Assembly: GCA_029243485.1 (NCBI GenBank)
Contig: JAQWRY010000063.1
Span: forward strand, 1-64,000
DNA length: 64,000 nucleotides
Direction of reading: 5' to 3'
From: Candidatus Binatia bacterium
GTDB lineage: Bacteria > Desulfobacterota > Binatia > UBA12015
Part shown: positions 23,876 to 33,949 of the stretch, piece by piece
Layout of the letters: each line of letters starts with the position of its first letter
How positions within the stretch are numbered: position 1 is the stretch's first letter
Notes under the pieces: model-generated
What the model was told of the DNA's origin: nothing
Seen by the model: the letters and a program-made list of their open reading frames with translations, nothing else
Database searches by the model: none
Program-made: the position numbers and the translations under genes

Positions 23876-24903
23876 GAATCCGAGCCTAGCAGAGGCACCT
23901 CCACCTCGCTGCCCGTGTCCGGCAGGTCTCGATCCGCTGCCGCCGGCGCCTCGTCGATCTGCCCCGAGAATTCGACCTCCCGCGTGACCGCCAACGTCAG
24001 GCCCGCCGCACCGTCATCGGTCAGGTCGCAACACTCGTCCGTGTAGACCGGCTCTTCCACTTCGCCGAGCGCATCACCGAGGAAGTGAGAGGAGACTCCG
24101 TCGCGCGACAGTCGCTCCGCCAAATCCCTCAGCCGTCGGTATAAGGGCGTCACGTCCGCGCCGATCGCATCGGCCTCGTGCTCGGGATCGTCGTACGGGT
24201 TCGGTTGTATGAAATGGAGAACCGGTTTGTTCCGCCCGAGACCGATCAGGTCCATCAGCCGGATCCGATCCTCCCACGCATCGAAGTATCGCTCCGAACG
24301 CTCCGCCAGACTTCCGGCTTCCGGCCCCCGCACGCTCCGTCCGGCAAGCGGTGCGTAGATCTCGGCGGAGGGATAGTCGGCGGGCCATCCCTTGCGTCCC
24401 GCGTCGGAGAACTCCAGGACTTCCCCCAGCCCATCGACGACGAGCGCCATGTCGATCGTGGGGAGATAGGAAGCGAAGGCATGGAACGTCTGCGGTTGCC
24501 GCCAGCCTTCCACCGCAAAGGGAAGGACCGTGACCCGCGTGTAGCCCTTCGACTTCAGACCGGGCAGAAGGGCTTCCTCGATCGCCTTTGCCTGCTTTGC
24601 GACCTGCAAAGCCGCCGATCCACCGAAGACCCCCACGACGAACTCCTCGTCCCCACGAGAGTACGGATACTCCCGACCGCCGGCTTCGAAGCCGTGACCA
24701 TTCACTCCCTCCCGACCTGGGGCGTACGTGTAACCCAGGTACGGATGGAGCTCGAACCGCGCATCCGAACCGCGCTGCGGCCCTTCAGCGGCCACCCGCG
24801 TCGGCCCGGCGAGCTCTCGCCGACCGTCCGACTCGCACGCAAGCGTGGATGCAAGGAGGGTGAACAAGAGCATCCGCAAGACCGTGGCCGCAGGTGACTT
24901 CAT
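23872..24903 (-). CDS. SGNH-like lipoprotein with degraded active site
   Basis: A 343-residue protein with a lipobox (LLASTLAC, Cys23). The fold follows SGNH hydrolases: VVGVFGGSAALQVA as block I with Ser, VEGWRQPQT as block II, and VVDGLGEVLEF at the block III position. At block V the segment YTDECCDLTDDG stands where D-x-x-H-L-T-x-x-G is expected, so the catalytic His appears lost. It may be a binding protein rather than an enzyme. It is the first gene before cyaY, with an ATGA overlap, so they are probably one transcript. Confidence 0.68.
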   Translation of the reverse strand: MKSPAATVLRMLLFTLLASTLACESDGRRELAGPTRVAAEGPQRGSDARFELHPYLGYTYAPGREGVNGHGFEAGGREYPYSRGDEEFVVGVFGGSAALQVAKQAKAIEEALLPGLKSKGYTRVTVLPFAVEGWRQPQTFHAFASYLPTIDMALVVDGLGEVLEFSDAGRKGWPADYPSAEIYAPLAGRSVRGPEAGSLAERSERYFDAWEDRIRLMDLIGLGRNKPVLHFIQPNPYDDPEHEADAIGADVTPLYRRLRDLAERLSRDGVSSHFLGDALGEVEEPVYTDECCDLTDDGAAGLTLAVTREVEFSGQIDEAPAAADRDLPDTGSEVEVPLLGSDS

Positions 24904-25013
24904 TCCACGAGGATGCCCGGCCTCACGCCAAGATCAAGGTGGTCGCTCTTAACAGCCCCCGCCTCCGTGGCAGCCGAGCCTTCGAGCGCATCTGCGCGAA
25001 GAGCCCTCCCGCA

Positions 25014-25484
25014 ATGCATATAGTAGACGACTCGGTCTCGGCTCGCGCCGCCGAACTCCACAACCAGTCCCACGCGGCCAAGCCGTTCCCGCACACCGTC
25101 ACCGACGGGTTTCTACGCCCCGAGCTCTGCGCACGGCTCGTCGCCGACTTCCCGTCCTACGACGAAGAGAAGTTCCGCAACGAGTGGGGCGAGCTCGGCA
25201 AAGCGGGGCCCGAGAACCTCCCGGCGATGGGCCCGGCCATGAATCGCTGCGCCGTCTTCGAGACGAGCGATCACTCGTGGCACGACATCACGATCTACAC
25301 CGACCGCCCGCTTCCCGATCACATCCGGGCGGGACGCAAACTCGAGTACCTGTGCGGGCGGGCGATCGACTACGCGCACAAGGCGTTGGAGGAGGAGACG
25401 GAGCACGAGCCCGAAGGCTGGCTCGAGCGCACGCTCCGGAAGGCAGCGCGGCAGCTGGCAAGCTTGCGCGGCGCCTCCCGCTAG
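25014..25484 (+). pseudogene. 2OG-Fe(II) oxygenase (prolyl-hydroxylase-like) with the catalytic core deleted
   Basis: A 156-codon open frame keeps both ends of a known oxygenase type. The front is KPFPHTVTDGFLRPELCARL followed by FPSYDEEKFRNEWGELG. The back is FETSDHSWHDI and YTDRPLPDHIRAGRKL. Between PENLPAMGP and NRCAVFE the whole jelly-roll section with the HxD iron motif, normally about 90 residues, is missing. The deletion kept the frame, so a protein may still be made, but without HxD it cannot bind iron normally. The ATG at 25014 is the likely start; upstream in-frame codons do not resemble the family. Confidence 0.72.
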
Positions 25485-27150: not shown

Positions 27151-28338
27151 ATGCGGAACGTCGGGACAGGAGCGCTAGGCGCACTCATCGCCTTGGCGCT
27201 GCTCGGCTGCGACCCTACCCAGCCGCTGTTCGGCCCCCGCGAGGTGGACGTCGCTCCCGCCGGCCGGCGCACTGTGGCCGAAGTCGTCGACTACTCCGCC
27301 CGACTGGAAGCCACGGCGCGCGTCGACGTGCGAGCACGCACCGAAGGCTACCTGCTCGAACGCGGCTTCGAAGACGGCACAGAGGTCGAGCAGGACACCG
27401 AGCTCTTCGTCCTGCAGCCCGATGCCTACGACGCCGCTCTCCGCGCCGCTCGTGCCGAACTCAAACGCGACGAGGCCGCGCTCGAAGCGGCCCGCAAGAA
27501 CGTGACCAGGCTCTCCGCCGGCAAGAGCGACCCCGAGTCGGTCGAAGCAGCCACTCTCGCACAAACCACCGCACAGGCGGCGGTCGACTCAAGTCGAGCA
27601 GCCGCCGATCTCGCGCAGGCGGACGCGAGCTACACCACCCTGCGCGCGCCGATCGACGGACGGATCGACGGCCACCCGGTCGACGTGGGCAACCTCGTGT
27701 CGAAGGGCGACCGGCTGGCGACGATCGTGCAGCTGGATCCAATCTTCGTGACCGCCGACGTCCCCGCGGACAGCCTCGCGCAGCTGCAAGACTCCCACAC
27801 CGAGACACCAGTCGTCACGCAAGTCGTCAAAGCCGACGGCACCGTCCACGAGCGAGCCGGCCGAGTGCAGACGATCGAGGGAGAGATCGACGCGGAGACG
27901 GGCACGGTTCGCGTCCGCGCCGCGATCCCGAATCCGCGCACCGACCTCCTGGCGGGCCAGGACGTCACCGCGCGATTCCTTCTGCGATGGCACGTCGACG
28001 CCATCGTCGTCCCGCACTGGACTGTCGAGGAAGACAGCGACGGAGCCTTCGTGCTCGTCGTGGGAGGCGACGGGCTGATCGAACGCCGCGCAGTCGAGCC
28101 CGGCCCCCGGTCCGGCGGAGAACGGGTCGTGCACGCCGGGCTCTCCGAGGGCGACCGCGTCGTGGTCGGCCGGCGAAGTGCGGCGGTGCCCGGACGACGC
28201 GTTGCCCCGGTTGCAAAAGAGATCACGCCGGAGCCGACCCCCATCCTCGGACCGTACGTGTCGGCACCGTCGCCAGCCCCGCCGACCCCGAGACCGTCGC
28301 CCGCGGCAACCGAGCGCACCGAGAGGACGCAGCCCTGA
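27151..28338 (+). CDS. RND-type efflux periplasmic adaptor (MFP/HlyD family), no pump alongside
   Basis: About 395 residues with a lipobox (ALLGC), a split lipoyl/hairpin/lipoyl arrangement (RARTEGYLLERGFEDGTEVE ... APIDGRIDGHPVDVGNLVSK), an Ala-rich coiled hairpin (about 100-170), a beta-barrel domain and a membrane-proximal domain. A Pro/Thr-rich tail ends the protein. Such adaptors join inner-membrane RND pumps to TolC. Here no RND pump follows; the next gene, a ZIP transporter, starts within its stop codon (TGATG). An in-frame TTG at 27133 is an alternative start. The unusual pairing suggests an envelope or metal role, but that is inference. Confidence 0.85.
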   Translation: MRNVGTGALGALIALALLGCDPTQPLFGPREVDVAPAGRRTVAEVVDYSARLEATARVDVRARTEGYLLERGFEDGTEVEQDTELFVLQPDAYDAALRAARAELKRDEAALEAARKNVTRLSAGKSDPESVEAATLAQTTAQAAVDSSRAAADLAQADASYTTLRAPIDGRIDGHPVDVGNLVSKGDRLATIVQLDPIFVTADVPADSLAQLQDSHTETPVVTQVVKADGTVHERAGRVQTIEGEIDAETGTVRVRAAIPNPRTDLLAGQDVTARFLLRWHVDAIVVPHWTVEEDSDGAFVLVVGGDGLIERRAVEPGPRSGGERVVHAGLSEGDRVVVGRRSAAVPGRRVAPVAKEITPEPTPILGPYVSAPSPAPPTPRPSPAATERTERTQP

Positions 28339-29060
28339 TGCTCCACGTTCTCGGCTTCGTCGCGTTCCCCGTCCTCGCCGGTATCGCCGGTGGAGCCCTC
28401 GCCGCCTTTCGGCCGCCCGGACCTCGGCTCGCGAGCGCCGTGCAGCACTTTGCGGCCGGCGTCGTATTCGCCGCGGTCGCCGTAGAAATCCTTCCCGGGA
28501 TGTCGCATGGAGCCCATCTGTCGGAGGTCGTCGTCGGGTTCGTCGTCGGCGTCGCGCTCATGCTCACCCTCGGCGCCTGGGAGCGGCGGGCCGAGCAGGC
28601 CGCCGAAGCGAGCGCCGCCTTTCCGACCGCCGCGTTGATCGCCGTCGGCCTGGACCTCGTGATCGACGGCTTTCTCATCGGCGTCGGCTTCATCGCCGGG
28701 GAGAAGGAAGGCCTGCTCCTCACCTTCGCGCTAACGCTCGAGGTGCTCTTCCTCGGACTCTCGGTCGCCGCGCTCCTCGGCCGATCCGGGGCGACGGCCG
28801 GAACGATCCTCCTTACGACGGGTGGACTCTCTCTTCTGACCGCGGTCGGTGCCGTTGCGAGTGCCACCATCGGTCCGAGCCTATCGCCGCCCATGCTCGT
28901 GGGAGTCCTGTCGTTCGGTTGTGCCGCCCTGCTCTACCTCGTGACGGAGGAGTTGCTCGTCGAAGCGCACGAGGCCACACCCGACAGCAGTTGGCGGACC
29001 GCGATGTTCTTCGTAGGCTTCCTTCTCGTGATCCTTCTCGATCTCGAGGGTGCCGGGTGA
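28338..29060 (+). CDS. ZIP-family metal cation transporter
   Basis: A 240-residue protein of eight hydrophobic segments with ZIP features: QHFAAGVVFAAVAVEILPG in an early helix, LDLVIDGFLIGVGF where metal-binding helix 4 stands, and VTEELLVEAHE near the end as helix 5/6. The HNxxEG metal motif is altered to VIDGFLIG, keeping an acidic residue only. It probably moves Zn2+ or another divalent ion across the inner membrane; direction is unproven. The start overlaps the adaptor stop by one base. Its own stop overlaps the next GTG by four, so adaptor, ZIP and GT-C-like genes form one translationally coupled operon. Confidence 0.8.
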   Translation: MLHVLGFVAFPVLAGIAGGALAAFRPPGPRLASAVQHFAAGVVFAAVAVEILPGMSHGAHLSEVVVGFVVGVALMLTLGAWERRAEQAAEASAAFPTAALIAVGLDLVIDGFLIGVGFIAGEKEGLLLTFALTLEVLFLGLSVAALLGRSGATAGTILLTTGGLSLLTAVGAVASATIGPSLSPPMLVGVLSFGCAALLYLVTEELLVEAHEATPDSSWRTAMFFVGFLLVILLDLEGAG

Positions 29061-31084
29061 GCAGCACGACCCGATCCGGGCTCGCCGCCGCTCTGCTCTA
29101 TTTCGCCATCGCGCTGTTCGCCAACCGAGCCGTGCTCGCGAACCCGTTCACTCTTCTGCCGACGCCCCTCGACTACACCCGAGCCGAGAAGCCCGGTTTG
29201 ATGCTCGTGTACGAAGCCGATCAAGATTTCGTCGTGACCTACATGGCACGCGTCGCGCGCGCGTTCGCGTTCGCACCGTCGAAGATCACCGACGTCGGGC
29301 TCTGCAACCCGATGCAGCAGGCGTACACTCTCGGGGAGCACATGTTCGGCGAGGGCCTGCTGGGCGCGCTGCCGTACCGCCTGACACAGGATCCGATCTT
29401 CACGTTCAACTCGGTGGCGATCCTGAGCACCTGGATCAGTTTCCTCGCGATCTACACCCTCGCGTTCTACTGGACCGGCAGCTTCGCGGCCGCGTTCCTG
29501 GCCGGGCTTCTCTTCGGCCTGATCCCATCCCGGCTAAGCAACCCCGCGCACATCTTCATCTTCGCGAATGCCTGGTCGGCGCTCGCGCTCGTGGCCGCCC
29601 ACCGGCTCTTCACACGCCAGCGCTGGCTGGACGCGGCGCTCCTGACTCTCTGCCTGTGCTTGCAGCTTCTCGAGAGCTTCTACCCGGTACTCGGACTCGC
29701 GATCATCGGCGGTGCCTATGGGCTCTCGCTGTCGATCAAGCACGCGGCGAAGCTTCCCCGGCTCGCGCCGAAACTCCTCGCCGTCGCTGCGGTGACCGGC
29801 GTGCTCGCGTGGCTCCTGTTCGGCCCGTACCTCGAGACCCAGGAAATCTGGGGAGTCCTTCAGGCCCGCAAGCGCATGCTCCTTTCACCCTACAGGTACC
29901 TCCCCGGCGAGGCGGCCTCTCCCGGATGGTTCCTCTCGATCCTCGCGGGAGTCGGACTCCTGGACCGCGCGCGAGGCGCGCGCGACCGGGACGACCCTCG
30001 CCTACCCCTGCTCGCTGCCGGCTTCCTGATCTTCTGGTGCACCGTGTGGTTCCTCTGGGTCCCCGGCCTCGGAAACCTTCCCTCCCCGCTTATTTCTCTC
30101 GCCGGTTACGTCCCCGGAATCGGATCCGTTCGCGCGCTCGCCGCACTCCAGCACGGCGTGCTCCTCGTCCTGTCGGTCTTCGCCGCGTATGCCGTCCTGG
30201 CTCTGACCGAACGATTCGCGCTTTCCGGCCGAGTCGCCATCACGACGGTACTCGCGGCTGGGATCCTCGCCCAGACGTTCCATCCTCCGACCGCCCGCGC
30301 GACGTTCGCTGCGACGGCCGATCTCGTGGGCAAGCCGTCTCGACCTTCCGCCGAGAAGCTCGATCTCCTGGCGCAGCTGCCCGACGGGGCCGTGCTCGAC
30401 CTGCCGCTCTCCTACAAGCCGCGCAAGAAGCTCCAGACGATGCCGGGCTATCTCCTCGCTGCCGCGTACTACGATCAGCGAACCGCCGCTTGCTACAATT
30501 CGTTTTTCTCGGGCCTGCAGACCGAGGTCGAAAGGCTCGTCGAGGCGCTTCCCGACCCGACCGCGGCGAAGGCACTATCGGCCCTCGGCTTTCGCAGCTT
30601 GCTCGTCCATCACGTCAAGTCGAATGCCGAGCCCCACCGCCTCGAGCCACTCCTCACGAACGAGTGGCAAACCCAGTTCCTCGGTCGGACCGAGGAGACG
30701 TCGGCGTACCGACTCGAGGCCGGACCGGTCACAGAGCGCTTCGAGGCGATCGCGAGCAAGCACGCAGGACTCCGGCGCAAGCAGGTGAAAGGTCCACGCG
30801 CCGATGTCGCGATCCGCTTCCACCGAGGTATGGGACCCACCTTCCGCCACCCCGACCCGATCGTGCCGTCCGACATCCTCATTCGCGTGCGTAAGCCCAA
30901 CGGCGATCTCGTGGCGGAGTCCACGGCTCGCATGCTCCTCCCCCTCGCGCTGGCAACCGGCGGCCACACCGATCGACGAATCGAGATCGACGTCCCGGAG
31001 GCGCCCGGTGCCTACCGGGTCGAGGTCGTTCGCACCGAGGAGCCCGACCTGGTCCTCGCGAGTCGGATCCTCAGTGTTCGTTGA
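29057..31084 (+). CDS. Polytopic GT-C-like membrane protein, copy 1
   Basis: A 675-residue inner-membrane protein with about ten to twelve helices in the first 420 residues and a soluble C-terminal part of about 250. An acidic first loop (EADQDFVVTYMARVARAF) follows helix 1, where GT-C glycosyltransferases carry their catalytic Asp. YTLGEHMFGEGLLGALPYRL is a strongly conserved loop between this protein and its neighbour. It may transfer sugars from lipid-linked donors to envelope acceptors, but no named family is certain (YfhO-like is possible). The GTG at 29057 overlaps the ZIP stop; its paralogue follows directly. Confidence 0.72.
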   Translation: MSSTTRSGLAAALLYFAIALFANRAVLANPFTLLPTPLDYTRAEKPGLMLVYEADQDFVVTYMARVARAFAFAPSKITDVGLCNPMQQAYTLGEHMFGEGLLGALPYRLTQDPIFTFNSVAILSTWISFLAIYTLAFYWTGSFAAAFLAGLLFGLIPSRLSNPAHIFIFANAWSALALVAAHRLFTRQRWLDAALLTLCLCLQLLESFYPVLGLAIIGGAYGLSLSIKHAAKLPRLAPKLLAVAAVTGVLAWLLFGPYLETQEIWGVLQARKRMLLSPYRYLPGEAASPGWFLSILAGVGLLDRARGARDRDDPRLPLLAAGFLIFWCTVWFLWVPGLGNLPSPLISLAGYVPGIGSVRALAALQHGVLLVLSVFAAYAVLALTERFALSGRVAITTVLAAGILAQTFHPPTARATFAATADLVGKPSRPSAEKLDLLAQLPDGAVLDLPLSYKPRKKLQTMPGYLLAAAYYDQRTAACYNSFFSGLQTEVERLVEALPDPTAAKALSALGFRSLLVHHVKSNAEPHRLEPLLTNEWQTQFLGRTEETSAYRLEAGPVTERFEAIASKHAGLRRKQVKGPRADVAIRFHRGMGPTFRHPDPIVPSDILIRVRKPNGDLVAESTARMLLPLALATGGHTDRRIEIDVPEAPGAYRVEVVRTEEPDLVLASRILSVR

Positions 31085-31143
31085 ACGAGGCAGAGGCTAA
31101 GCTCCGACGTGATGGGTCGGTGCAAGCAGCGAAGGAGATCTAC

Positions 31144-33159
31144 GTGAGCCCGCGCGCGGGCGGGATCGCCGCGGCGCTGCTCTATCTCGGTCTGTCCCTG
31201 TTCGCGAGTCGGGCGGTCCTCGTCGCACCATCCGAGCTGCTACCGCTCCCCGTTCGTCACGAGAAGCCCAGCCTCCAGAGGCTCTACCAGGCGGACCAGG
31301 ACTTCGTCGTCGGCAACATGGCACGAGTGGCGGGAGCGTTCTCGCTCGAGCCCTCGCGGCTGGACGACCCGGGGCTTTGCGCGCCGATGGATCGGCCCTA
31401 CACCCTGGGCGAGCACATGTTCGGGGAGGGCCTGATCGGCGCCGTCCCCTACCTCGTCACGCGCGACCCCATCCTCACCTTCAACTCCGTTGTCATCCTG
31501 AGCACGTGGATCAGCGCGATGGCGATGTACGCACTCGCCTTCTACTGGACCCGCAGCATACCTGCCGCTCTGATCGCGGGACTGCTCTTCGGCTTTCACC
31601 CGCACCGGATCAACAATCCGGCACACCTCTTCGGCTTCGGGAACGCGTGGACGGCCGTCGCCCTCCTCGCCGCACATTCCCTCTTCGCGCAACGACGGTG
31701 GCGCGACGCCGCGCTCCTCGCAGTCGCGCTCGGGTTACAACTTCTCGAGAGTTTCTATCAGGTTCTCGGCCTCGCGATCCTCGGAGGAACGTACGGCGCG
31801 TTCCTGCTCGCTCGCTACGCGCAGACACTCCCGGCGCTCCTACCGAAGCTGCTCGCCGTGGGCGTGTTCGTCGGCGGATTCGCGTGGTTGGTCCTCGGAC
31901 CGTACCTCGAGACCCAAGAGGTGTGGGGTGTTCTGGGGGGGCGCAACCGACTCCTGGCTGCCGCCATCAACTACTTGCCGGGCCGCTCGGCTTCACCCGG
32001 GTGGATCGCGTTCGTGCTCGCGACCATCGGATTGCTCGACCGCCTCCGAGGCCCCCGCACCCGCGACGGCGACGACCCGCGCGTCGCGCTCGCCCTCGCC
32101 GGGTTTCTTCTCTTCTGGTGCTCGGTGCTTTCCCTGCGGATTCCGGGGCTCGGAACCTTCCCGTCGCCGCTCCTCACGATCGGCGCGTCCATCCCCGGCA
32201 TCAATGCGGTGCGCGTGCTCGCCGCCTTGCAGTTCGGCGTGTGGCTGATCTTCGCGTTCTTCAGCGCGTACGGCGTGCTGGCGCTCGTCGAGCACATGCC
32301 GCGAAGAGTTGGCGCGGCGATGACGGTCCTGCTCGCGATCGCCGTCGCGCTACAGACGTTTCACCCCACACTGTCGTTGCGGTCGTTCGCGACCCGGGCC
32401 GACCTGGTGGGGTATGCAGCACGCCCTGCGGAGGCCGAACTCGAGCAACTAGCGAAACTGCCGCCCGGCGCCGTGCTAGACCTGCCTCTCGACTTCAAGA
32501 GAGGAAAGATCCGTCTGATGCCCGGCTACCTGCTCGCTGCGGGCTACCACCGCGAGCCGGTCGCCGCCTGTTACAATTCTTTCCTCTCGGGTCTCCAAGC
32601 GAAGATCCAGCAGCTGACCGAAGCGCTACCCAACCGGAGAGCCGCGCGTGCACTGTCCGCGCTCGGCTTCACGAGCATCCGCATCCACCACAGACACCGC
32701 GGGATCGGGACGCGGCTCGATTCTTTCCTCGAAGCACCCGACTACACCGAACTCATCGACCAGACGCGAAACGTCTCTCTGTACCGGCTCCTGCCGCACC
32801 CCGTGACAGAAGACTTCGCGGCGATCGCAAATCCGACCCCTCCGGGAAGCCGCGCCGTGGCCTCCCCACCCACCGCCGGCGTGATCTTTCGGTTCGTAGG
32901 CTCCGAGGGGCCGACGTTCCGCCATCCCGATCCGATCCTTCCCTCCGAAGTCATCGTTCGCTGGCGTAATCCCGCGGGCCCGACCTGGAAGGAAACGAAG
33001 GCTCTCGTCCTTCTCCCACCGGCCCTCGCCTCGGGGCAGCACGCCCAGGTCCAAGTGAACGTCGACGTGCCGCCGGAGCCCGGGCTCTACGTCGCCGAGC
33101 TTCTGCGAGCCGAAGAGCCGGGCCGGGTCCTCGCGAGTCGACACGTGACGGTGCGCTGA
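31144..33159 (+). CDS. Polytopic GT-C-like membrane protein, copy 2
   Basis: A 671-residue tandem paralogue of the preceding protein with the same layout: the acidic first loop (QADQDFVVGNMARVAGAF), YTLGEHMFGEGLIGAVPYLV, the GPYLETQEVWGVL loop, and a C-terminal soluble region ending in ASRHVTVR. Similarity runs along the full length, which indicates a gene duplication. The GTG at 31144 was chosen because a perfect AAGGAG precedes it by six bases; an upstream in-frame start would add 21 hydrophilic residues. The two copies may form a heteromer or act on different sugars. Confidence 0.75.
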   Translation: MSPRAGGIAAALLYLGLSLFASRAVLVAPSELLPLPVRHEKPSLQRLYQADQDFVVGNMARVAGAFSLEPSRLDDPGLCAPMDRPYTLGEHMFGEGLIGAVPYLVTRDPILTFNSVVILSTWISAMAMYALAFYWTRSIPAALIAGLLFGFHPHRINNPAHLFGFGNAWTAVALLAAHSLFAQRRWRDAALLAVALGLQLLESFYQVLGLAILGGTYGAFLLARYAQTLPALLPKLLAVGVFVGGFAWLVLGPYLETQEVWGVLGGRNRLLAAAINYLPGRSASPGWIAFVLATIGLLDRLRGPRTRDGDDPRVALALAGFLLFWCSVLSLRIPGLGTFPSPLLTIGASIPGINAVRVLAALQFGVWLIFAFFSAYGVLALVEHMPRRVGAAMTVLLAIAVALQTFHPTLSLRSFATRADLVGYAARPAEAELEQLAKLPPGAVLDLPLDFKRGKIRLMPGYLLAAGYHREPVAACYNSFLSGLQAKIQQLTEALPNRRAARALSALGFTSIRIHHRHRGIGTRLDSFLEAPDYTELIDQTRNVSLYRLLPHPVTEDFAAIANPTPPGSRAVASPPTAGVIFRFVGSEGPTFRHPDPILPSEVIVRWRNPAGPTWKETKALVLLPPALASGQHAQVQVNVDVPPEPGLYVAELLRAEEPGRVLASRHVTVR

Positions 33160-33601: not shown

Positions 33602-33668
33602 GGTCGGGCTGTCCTGGCCGGTCGGGGCGGTCTCAGCCGGTCGGGCTGTCCTGGCCGGTCGGGGCGGT
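33602..33668. repeat. Direct tandem repeat, 37-bp period
   Basis: Two identical 30-base copies (GGTCGGGCTGTCCTGGCCGG followed by TCGGGGCGGT) start at 33602 and 33639 with a CTCAGCC spacer. The array ends exactly at the stop of the next minus-strand gene and lies between two small secreted-protein genes. It contains smaller inverted pieces (GGCCGG), so it may also work as a hairpin. Confidence 0.8.
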
Positions 33669-33949
33669 TACCAGCCGCCTGCGTCTTCCTCCGGGGTGTC
33701 CGTCTTCGCGCCGGCCGCGTTCTTCGACGCCGCCTCGGCTGCCTCCGCCTGCGCGGCTCCCGCGTCGACTTCGTCCATCACGCCGCCAGTGTCCCCCGGC
33801 GTCTCGATGTCCTCGACGTACTCGGAAGGAGCGACGATGCCGCCGCCTTCCTTTTCGTGACTACCGGCGTGCGAGGCTCCGGCGAAGCTCACGGTCAGAA
33901 CGATTGCTGCGAAGGGGACTACTCGGCGCGTAAGAATCGATCGAAACAC
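33668..33949 (-). CDS. Small acidic secreted protein
   Basis: A 93-residue protein with a signal peptide (FAAIVLTVSFAGASHA) and a strongly acidic, Ala/Glu-rich mature part (YVEDIETPGDTGGVMDEVDA, then an Ala-rich helix and PEEDAGGW). There is no cysteine and no known motif. The GTG start has a perfect AAGGAGG eight bases upstream, which makes translation very likely. Function unknown. Confidence 0.7.
   Translation of the reverse strand: MFRSILTRRVVPFAAIVLTVSFAGASHAGSHEKEGGGIVAPSEYVEDIETPGDTGGVMDEVDAGAAQAEAAEAASKNAAGAKTDTPEEDAGGW

Follow-up and report, generated by a model that had tools for sequence, protein, structure and literature searches.

What joins an efflux-type adaptor, a metal transporter and two membrane sugar-transferase-like proteins in a single tight operon? 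The question is raised by a locus in the window, a 64,000-nucleotide stretch (positions 1 to 64,000 of contig JAQWRY010000063.1) of the 6.5 Mb assembly GCA_029243485.1 from a Candidatus Binatia bacterium, in which the gene for an adaptor of the resistance-nodulation-division (RND) type is followed by genes for a ZIP-like metal transporter and for two tandem proteins resembling GT-C glycosyltransferases, GT-C1 and GT-C2. The original prediction was that these genes could encode a metal-dependent envelope glycosylation or export system. The locus was compared across the order to which the genome belongs, which consists of one family of 14 genomes, several of them incomplete; the genus holds four, the window genome and those designated G009, G010 and G011. 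The grouping of two membrane sugar-transferase genes, a metal transporter and a tipless adaptor in a tight operon is real and was encountered in a single genus. On balance, it probably represents a GT-C locus to which the adaptor and the metal transporter were added, with the adaptor having left efflux and the ZIP-like protein serving general metal homeostasis.

The full four-gene set is present in the window genome and in G010, two of the four members of the genus, and in none of the ten other genomes of the family. G009 carries the adaptor at the locus without ZIP or GT-C, while G011 carries the adaptor, a 31-codon ZIP remnant (L037 4853-4945, minus strand) and GT-C1 only. The ZIP gene of G010 spans two contig ends, its halves being joined on the basis of synteny on both sides. 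In two other genera a GT-C gene is present without adaptor or ZIP: in G001 it directly adjoins frataxin and SelO, and in G008 a single gene separates it from a SelO fragment. Phylogenetic analysis places the cassette genes in a clade of five rows (support 100/100) with the G008 gene as its sister (89/87), and the G001 gene falls within the same nine-row group (100/99). The GT-C1/GT-C2 duplication predates the split between the window genome and G010, and the G011 gene groups with GT-C1, indicating that G011 probably lost GT-C2. By their association with frataxin and SelO in the two other genera, the GT-C genes appear to be old residents of the locus, at which the RND adaptor would have been placed within this genus. 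Stages in the assembly of an operon at a GT-C gene already in place may thus be read from the four related genomes.

Among 44 loci around GT-C relatives, in which several contigs are present twice and many loci end at contig ends, the only ZIP matches given by tblastn at a threshold of E 1e-3 were those of G010 and G011. For the adaptor, the search gave the G011 gene and, besides it, one weak match in L119 (28% identity, E 2e-4, 7 kb from GT-C); the G010 adaptor lies on the other contig of that genome. A search of the 148 genomes of the class at E 0.001 yielded a ZIP match in 31; identity exceeds 35% in only three of these, each belonging to this genus, and is 21-35% in the remaining 28. The ZIP search covered the genomes of the class and, beyond the class, plasmid records. 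That none of the genomes searched outside the genus has the adaptor-ZIP-GT-C set argues against a general system, and the proposal of a conserved metal-dependent glycosylation or export system, put to the neighbourhood check suggested at the outset, is not supported: GT-C relatives outside the genus lack the ZIP in the 44 loci. With its observed occurrence limited to this genus, the set resembles a local arrangement more than a widespread new system.

Within the genus, the operon itself is well defined. All four open reading frames lie on the plus strand, and their coordinates bear out the order and both junctions originally described: adaptor and ZIP overlap in TGATG (stop TGA 28336-28338, start ATG 28338-28340), ZIP and GT-C1 overlap in GTGA (start GTG 29057-29059, stop TGA 29058-29060), and the GTG start of GT-C2 at 31144 is preceded, as had been noted, by a ribosome binding site, AAGGAG with a six-base spacer (AAGGAG-atctac-GTG). 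Gene order is the same in G010, with TGATG and ATGA junctions, and in G011 TGATG and GTGA are retained around the ZIP remnant, followed by one GT-C gene. This recurrence of order and overlaps in G010, and in part in G011, indicates that the operon is more than chance. The four genes are probably co-expressed. A promoter scan gave no site against 0.3 expected and a terminator scan four sites against 3.2 expected. Identity between the window and G010 in the four operon genes, compared by codon position and not as a formal dN/dS, drops mainly at codon position 3, a pattern as expected under protein-level constraint. A run of 38 bases at the end of the ZIP gene (window 28980-29017) is identical to G011, and GT-C2 shares a 36-base run with G010.

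GT-C1 and GT-C2 share 55% identity across 671 alignment columns and have no Pfam or NCBIfam match over cut-off. An AlphaFold2 model of GT-C1 calculated with 24 sequences reached a pLDDT of 91.8 and a pTM of 0.91. Foldseek gave 14 rows for this model at or below E 0.001, every one a GT-C enzyme or complex, with AftA (E 1.7e-6), PglB, DPY19 and OST at the top; in row 9n9j, titled as a translocon, the matched chain would be OST. With VIA-align, GT-C enzymes or complexes that contain one fill the first 42 rows (Z 12.2-19.0, rmsd 4.1-8.2), the best rows exceeding a Z of about 13, the level which the tool's note calls common for helical models. On the strength of the predicted structure, the fold of GT-C1 can be assigned with confidence to the GT-C glycosyltransferases, in support of the description of the two proteins as tandem GT-C-like. 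The catalytic Asp of this superfamily sits in the first extracytoplasmic loop. Asp55 of GT-C1 is invariant in all 26 rows of an alignment comprising 26 of the 27 GT-C genes from the window and the fetched loci (L046 excluded) and conserved to at least 90% in a wider 24-row set (22 of 35 loci plus the two window proteins), making it a candidate for this residue.

The wider GT-C family gave 48 matches at E 1e-50 or better, some partial, in 11 of the 14 family genomes, six of them in the window genome itself. One group of paralogues (L043-L049, seven loci of which one is contig-cut) lies beside DUF2304 (PF10066), a methyltransferase and a sulfatase, with a GT2 (PF00535) in five of the seven loci and an MBOAT acyltransferase in several, the Pfam names being taken from a scan of L044. 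A contig deposited as Myxococcales has a similar GT2-like, DUF2304-like, GT-C row, as judged by eye from protein starts. These GT2 and DUF2304 neighbours fit enzymes using polyprenyl-phosphate sugars. Literature searches found no paper joining Binatota and glycosyltransferase, and DUF2304 was absent among the matches listed for GT-C or glycosyltransferase. GT-C1 and GT-C2 are thus most likely inner-membrane enzymes that would move one sugar from a polyprenyl-phosphate sugar, with a GT2 from another part of the genome supplying this donor, to a lipid or glycan acceptor at the periplasmic face; it is likely that they glycosylate an envelope molecule. Tandem GT-C copies also occur in L048 and L049, and three in L052 (4924-11717, genome G013) indicate that tandem duplication recurs in the family. 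The paralogue cluster (L044 7356-17078 plus L043 and L045-L049) is envelope-glycan-like, with the GT-C C-terminus extended in some loci, and also encodes a second large membrane protein family with no Pfam match in the members tested.

Some RND adaptors serve several pumps. The adaptor at this locus scores well over the cut-off of 94.9 bits for TIGR01730 (RND_mfp) across residues 32-352 and occupies the same place without an adjoining RND pump in all four genomes of the genus. The claim that it lacks a pump is upheld, as none is encoded in the operon and the ten full-length RND pumps of the window genome (shorter fragments being left out of the count) each have another adaptor within 1 kb. Its hairpin was compared in an alignment of 28 adaptors, four from this locus, 20 linked to pumps and four others. 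The hairpin segment spans 71, 68 and 57 residues in the window, G010 and G011, respectively, and 75 in G009, against 61, 63, 75 or 77 residues in 18 of the 20 pump-linked adaptors; the two outliers have 50 and 5, the latter from a short gene model. At the aligned tip, those same 18 pump-linked adaptors carry R-x3-L, as do the G009 adaptor and three of the four others; the window, G010 and G011 proteins all lack it, and the R-x3-L that occurs in the first helix of the G010 adaptor lies before the tip and is fortuitous. A stricter pattern missed RYRRLADKGYVS of G009 and RARRLRDQGVIS of G009C11, both of which are visible in the alignment. In PMC3391258, RxxxLxxxxxxS at the hairpin tip is described as the TolC interface, impaired by single changes. 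As aligned, the adaptor coupled to the ZIP or its remnant and to GT-C has lost the docking tip, while the uncoupled G009 adaptor keeps it, suggesting that the former no longer docks TolC.

The ZIP-like transporter is present as originally described, but the match to PF02535 lies below the cut-off of 35.1 bits and the protein is therefore named ZIP-like. A single-sequence model gave eight helices at a pLDDT of 48.3, too low for use. The sequence was aligned with nine plasmid relatives and six other ZIPs (six gene models from 12 loci). The HNxxEG-type motif is absent from helix 4, in which the window protein has D-L-V-I-D-G. The original prediction set VIDGFLIG against HNxxEG, which is out of register, as the facing segment is D-L-V-I-D-G. 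Four of the other ZIPs have H-x3-D-G (H-S-F-I-D-G, H-D-F-V-D-G, H-T-L-F-D-G and H-S-L-I-D-G), a fifth has D-N-V-V-D-G and the sixth has neither form. In the ungapped register, which was set by hand where MAFFT placed a two-residue gap, the H is replaced by D and the second acid is retained. The window protein and all nine plasmid relatives share D-[ILV]-[LAV]-[ILV]-D-G. Thus, the motif does depart from HNxxEG, as had been claimed, but is the mark of a plasmid-borne subfamily and not a private alteration. PMC13192868 names five major subfamilies of ZIPs besides numerous minor groups.

This D-x3-D-G subfamily provides a context for the transporter. Three plasmid relatives are 47-51% identical to the window ZIP, and a search with one relative gave 84 plasmid records, including Sphingomonadales, Methylobacterium, Deinococcus, Hymenobacter, Arthrobacter and cyanobacteria. 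Nine neighbourhoods of the 84 were read, and in each the ZIP has a gene for a heavy-metal P-type ATPase or a CDF transporter no more than 4 kb away. The relatives in these plasmid heavy-metal islands (L076, L077, L078 and L141-L146) are mostly annotated as 'transporter' or 'hypothetical protein', and several Hymenobacter relatives as 'ZIP family metal transporter'. It is likely that the ZIP-like protein moves a divalent metal, which in the favoured reading would serve general homeostasis. The window and G010 ZIPs agree at 77% of positions in the N-terminal part and at 87% in the C-terminal part, compared with 59-62% for the adaptor and GT-C proteins and 81-95% for the SelO, frataxin, SDR and ThiG-like neighbours; fourfold-type codons are identical at 0.49-0.51 in the ZIP and 0.31-0.49 in the neighbours. 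A degenerate, dead ZIP was rejected on this identity close to that of core neighbours, with only about half of the fourfold-type codons identical, and a recent import was rejected on the same conservation. As the likeness to the plasmid proteins is only about 50%, any transfer of the ZIP would be old.

The plasmid neighbourhoods also bear on an efflux or uptake role, in which the adaptor would work in trans with an RND pump, the ZIP would belong to the same metal-resistance function and the GT-C proteins would be passengers. In Sphingobium TKS, a CusA/CzcA pump is encoded at a distance of 1.4 kb from the ZIP and the adaptor of this pump at 4.6 kb, a Hymenobacter ZIP lies 3.7 kb from an adaptor and a Novosphingobium ZIP 0.5 kb from a TolC-family gene; furthermore, outer-membrane channels serve several pumps, according to PMC8277102. 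We regard this role as unlikely, given that the ten full-length pumps have their own adaptors, that the channel-docking tip is lost and that four aligned pump-linked adaptors, among the best matches, are only 29-33% identical to the window adaptor. Sphingobium and Hymenobacter provide the only RND adaptors annotated in the nine plasmid neighbourhoods read, two of nine. A conserved adaptor-ZIP pair across bacteria, which it had been suggested to look for at the outset, was rejected on the evidence of the class genomes and of these nine plasmid neighbourhoods.

The conservation of the ZIP could alternatively reflect a dedicated metal-linked envelope glycosylation module, in which both GT-C enzymes would need metal, the ZIP would set its supply, and the blunt adaptor would keep the enzymes together or pass on their product. 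Such a module is consistent with retention of the overlaps in one further species and, in part, in another, with the 77%/87% identity of the ZIP compared with 59-62% for its operon partners, and with an adaptor tip changed only where it is coupled to the set. ZIPs, however, mostly bring metal into the cytoplasm, away from the periplasmic active site. In addition, the set was not found outside the genus, G011 retains GT-C1 without the ZIP, and no metal transporter was recognised near the other paralogues at 20 fetched GT-C loci, as judged from the first 45 residues of each neighbour. A module of this kind has a low probability. A related and rather improbable form is a small complex evolved within one genus, in which the TolC-blind adaptor would act as a lipoprotein scaffold for the GT-C enzymes and the D-x3-D-G ZIP-like protein would tune divalent metal. 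A literature search combining adaptor hairpin, glycosyltransferase and ZIP found nothing related.

The opposite possibility is that adaptor and ZIP are eroding leftovers, kept open only since the translation of GT-C is coupled to them. The length of the hairpin deletion differs in each species, the ZIP of G011 is cut to 31 codons with both junctions kept, and the upstream oxygenase gene of the window is shortened, as would be expected of decay. The identities at codon positions 1/2/3 between the window and G010, 0.69/0.77/0.48 in the adaptor and 0.87/0.94/0.57 in the C-terminal part of the ZIP, argue to the contrary, and general erosion of the two genes appears very improbable.

We therefore return to a GT-C locus with an added adaptor and metal transporter. 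In three of the four species the adaptor is translationally coupled to GT-C through the ZIP-like transporter or its remnant; it would have given up building an efflux channel and persist as a lipoprotein of the periplasm, where it may be a scaffold for the membrane proteins encoded beside it. Co-location and probable co-expression fall short of proof that the four proteins operate as one machine. Several observations weigh against this reading. The overlaps survive in G010, and in G011 despite loss of nearly all of the ZIP, suggesting that coupling may matter. Pumpless adaptors are not rare: the other four examined in the window genome, each scoring above the cut-off (C32 twice, C73 and C43), include three that keep R-x3-L. 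The pump-linked C72 and C21a (a 303-residue gene model) are also without a normal tip. The tip contrast sets three related genomes against one and thus amounts to one evolutionary event, and tip loss could be plain decay. The deletions seen in G011 may stem from misassembly, since the label of its contig gives a coverage of about 1. Finally, the catalytic role of Asp55 is putative, resting on conservation and on position after the first helix.

The coordinates of the locus are collected in Table 1.

Table 1. Positions of the operon genes, their diagnostic segments and a flanking gene (window coordinates unless a locus is named)
Feature	Position	Strand	Basis
RND-type periplasmic adaptor, no pump; lipoprotein-like N-terminus ALLGC by eye	27151..28338	+	TIGR01730 217.8 bits
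Adaptor alpha-hairpin segment, residues 90-160 (71 residues); tip at about residues 115-130 without R-x3-L	27418..27630	+	28-adaptor alignment, pattern check
ZIP-like metal transporter, D-x3-D-G subfamily	28338..29060	+	PF02535 30.1 bits; 47-51% identity to plasmid 'transporters'
Signature D106-L-V-I-D110-G111, at the position of HNxxEG/HSFIDG	28653..28670	+	alignment with 9 plasmid relatives and 6 other ZIPs
GT-C1, predicted GT-C fold at about residues 1-555 and C-terminal beta domain at about 558-675	29057..31084	+	AlphaFold2, Foldseek, VIA-align
GT-C1 Asp55, after first membrane helix, candidate catalytic Asp	29219..29221	+	conservation
GT-C2, tandem paralogue of GT-C1; Asp51 is the equivalent Asp	31144..33159	+	55% identity; tree
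IVAPSEYxExIET protein	L071 7265-7552; window 33668-33949; L036 5309-5536; L037 1970-2221		

The IVAPSEYxExIET protein is small, probably secreted and flanks the locus in every genome of the genus; no Pfam match was obtained for the copy in the window. Upstream of the operon, a 2OG-Fe(II) oxygenase gene (window 24894-25484, plus strand) is shortened in frame, about residues 78-172 being unmatched, and is separated from the adaptor by a glucose/sorbosone dehydrogenase gene. In G011, a 314-residue 2OG-Fe(II) oxygenase (PF13640; L037 6030-6974) overlaps the adaptor start.

An adaptor seemingly kept as a protein after loss of its TolC-docking part offers a natural test of non-efflux roles of adaptors. 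Neither the GT-C family nor the D-x3-D-G ZIP-like subfamily has a curated Pfam or NCBIfam match over cut-off in the members tested, and both merit models of their own.

Each component may be compared with known systems. Like RND adaptors of the MexE/AcrA type (TIGR01730), the window adaptor has a profile match over cut-off and a lipoprotein-like start, but it is pumpless, with a shortened tip that lacks RxxxLxxxxxxS. BesA and BACEGG_01895, as described in the review PMC8277102, are likewise adaptors with an altered hairpin or no known pump; the hairpin of BesA is wholly absent, whereas that of the window adaptor is trimmed and its gene is coupled to ZIP and GT-C. The ZIP-like protein shares D-x3-D-G, T[LI]E and EELLxEAHE with plasmid proteins such as Novosphingobium pLA4 WP_039858502.1 and Hymenobacter WP_324679677.1, but the nine plasmid relatives read lie within 4 kb of a P-type ATPase or CDF gene, whereas the neighbours in the window are an adaptor and GT-C genes. 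GT-C1 in turn resembles the GT-C structures PglB/STT3, PMT, ArnT, AftA and DPY19 in its predicted fold and in a candidate catalytic Asp following the first membrane helix, but is only 9-15% identical to them and carries a C-terminal beta domain.

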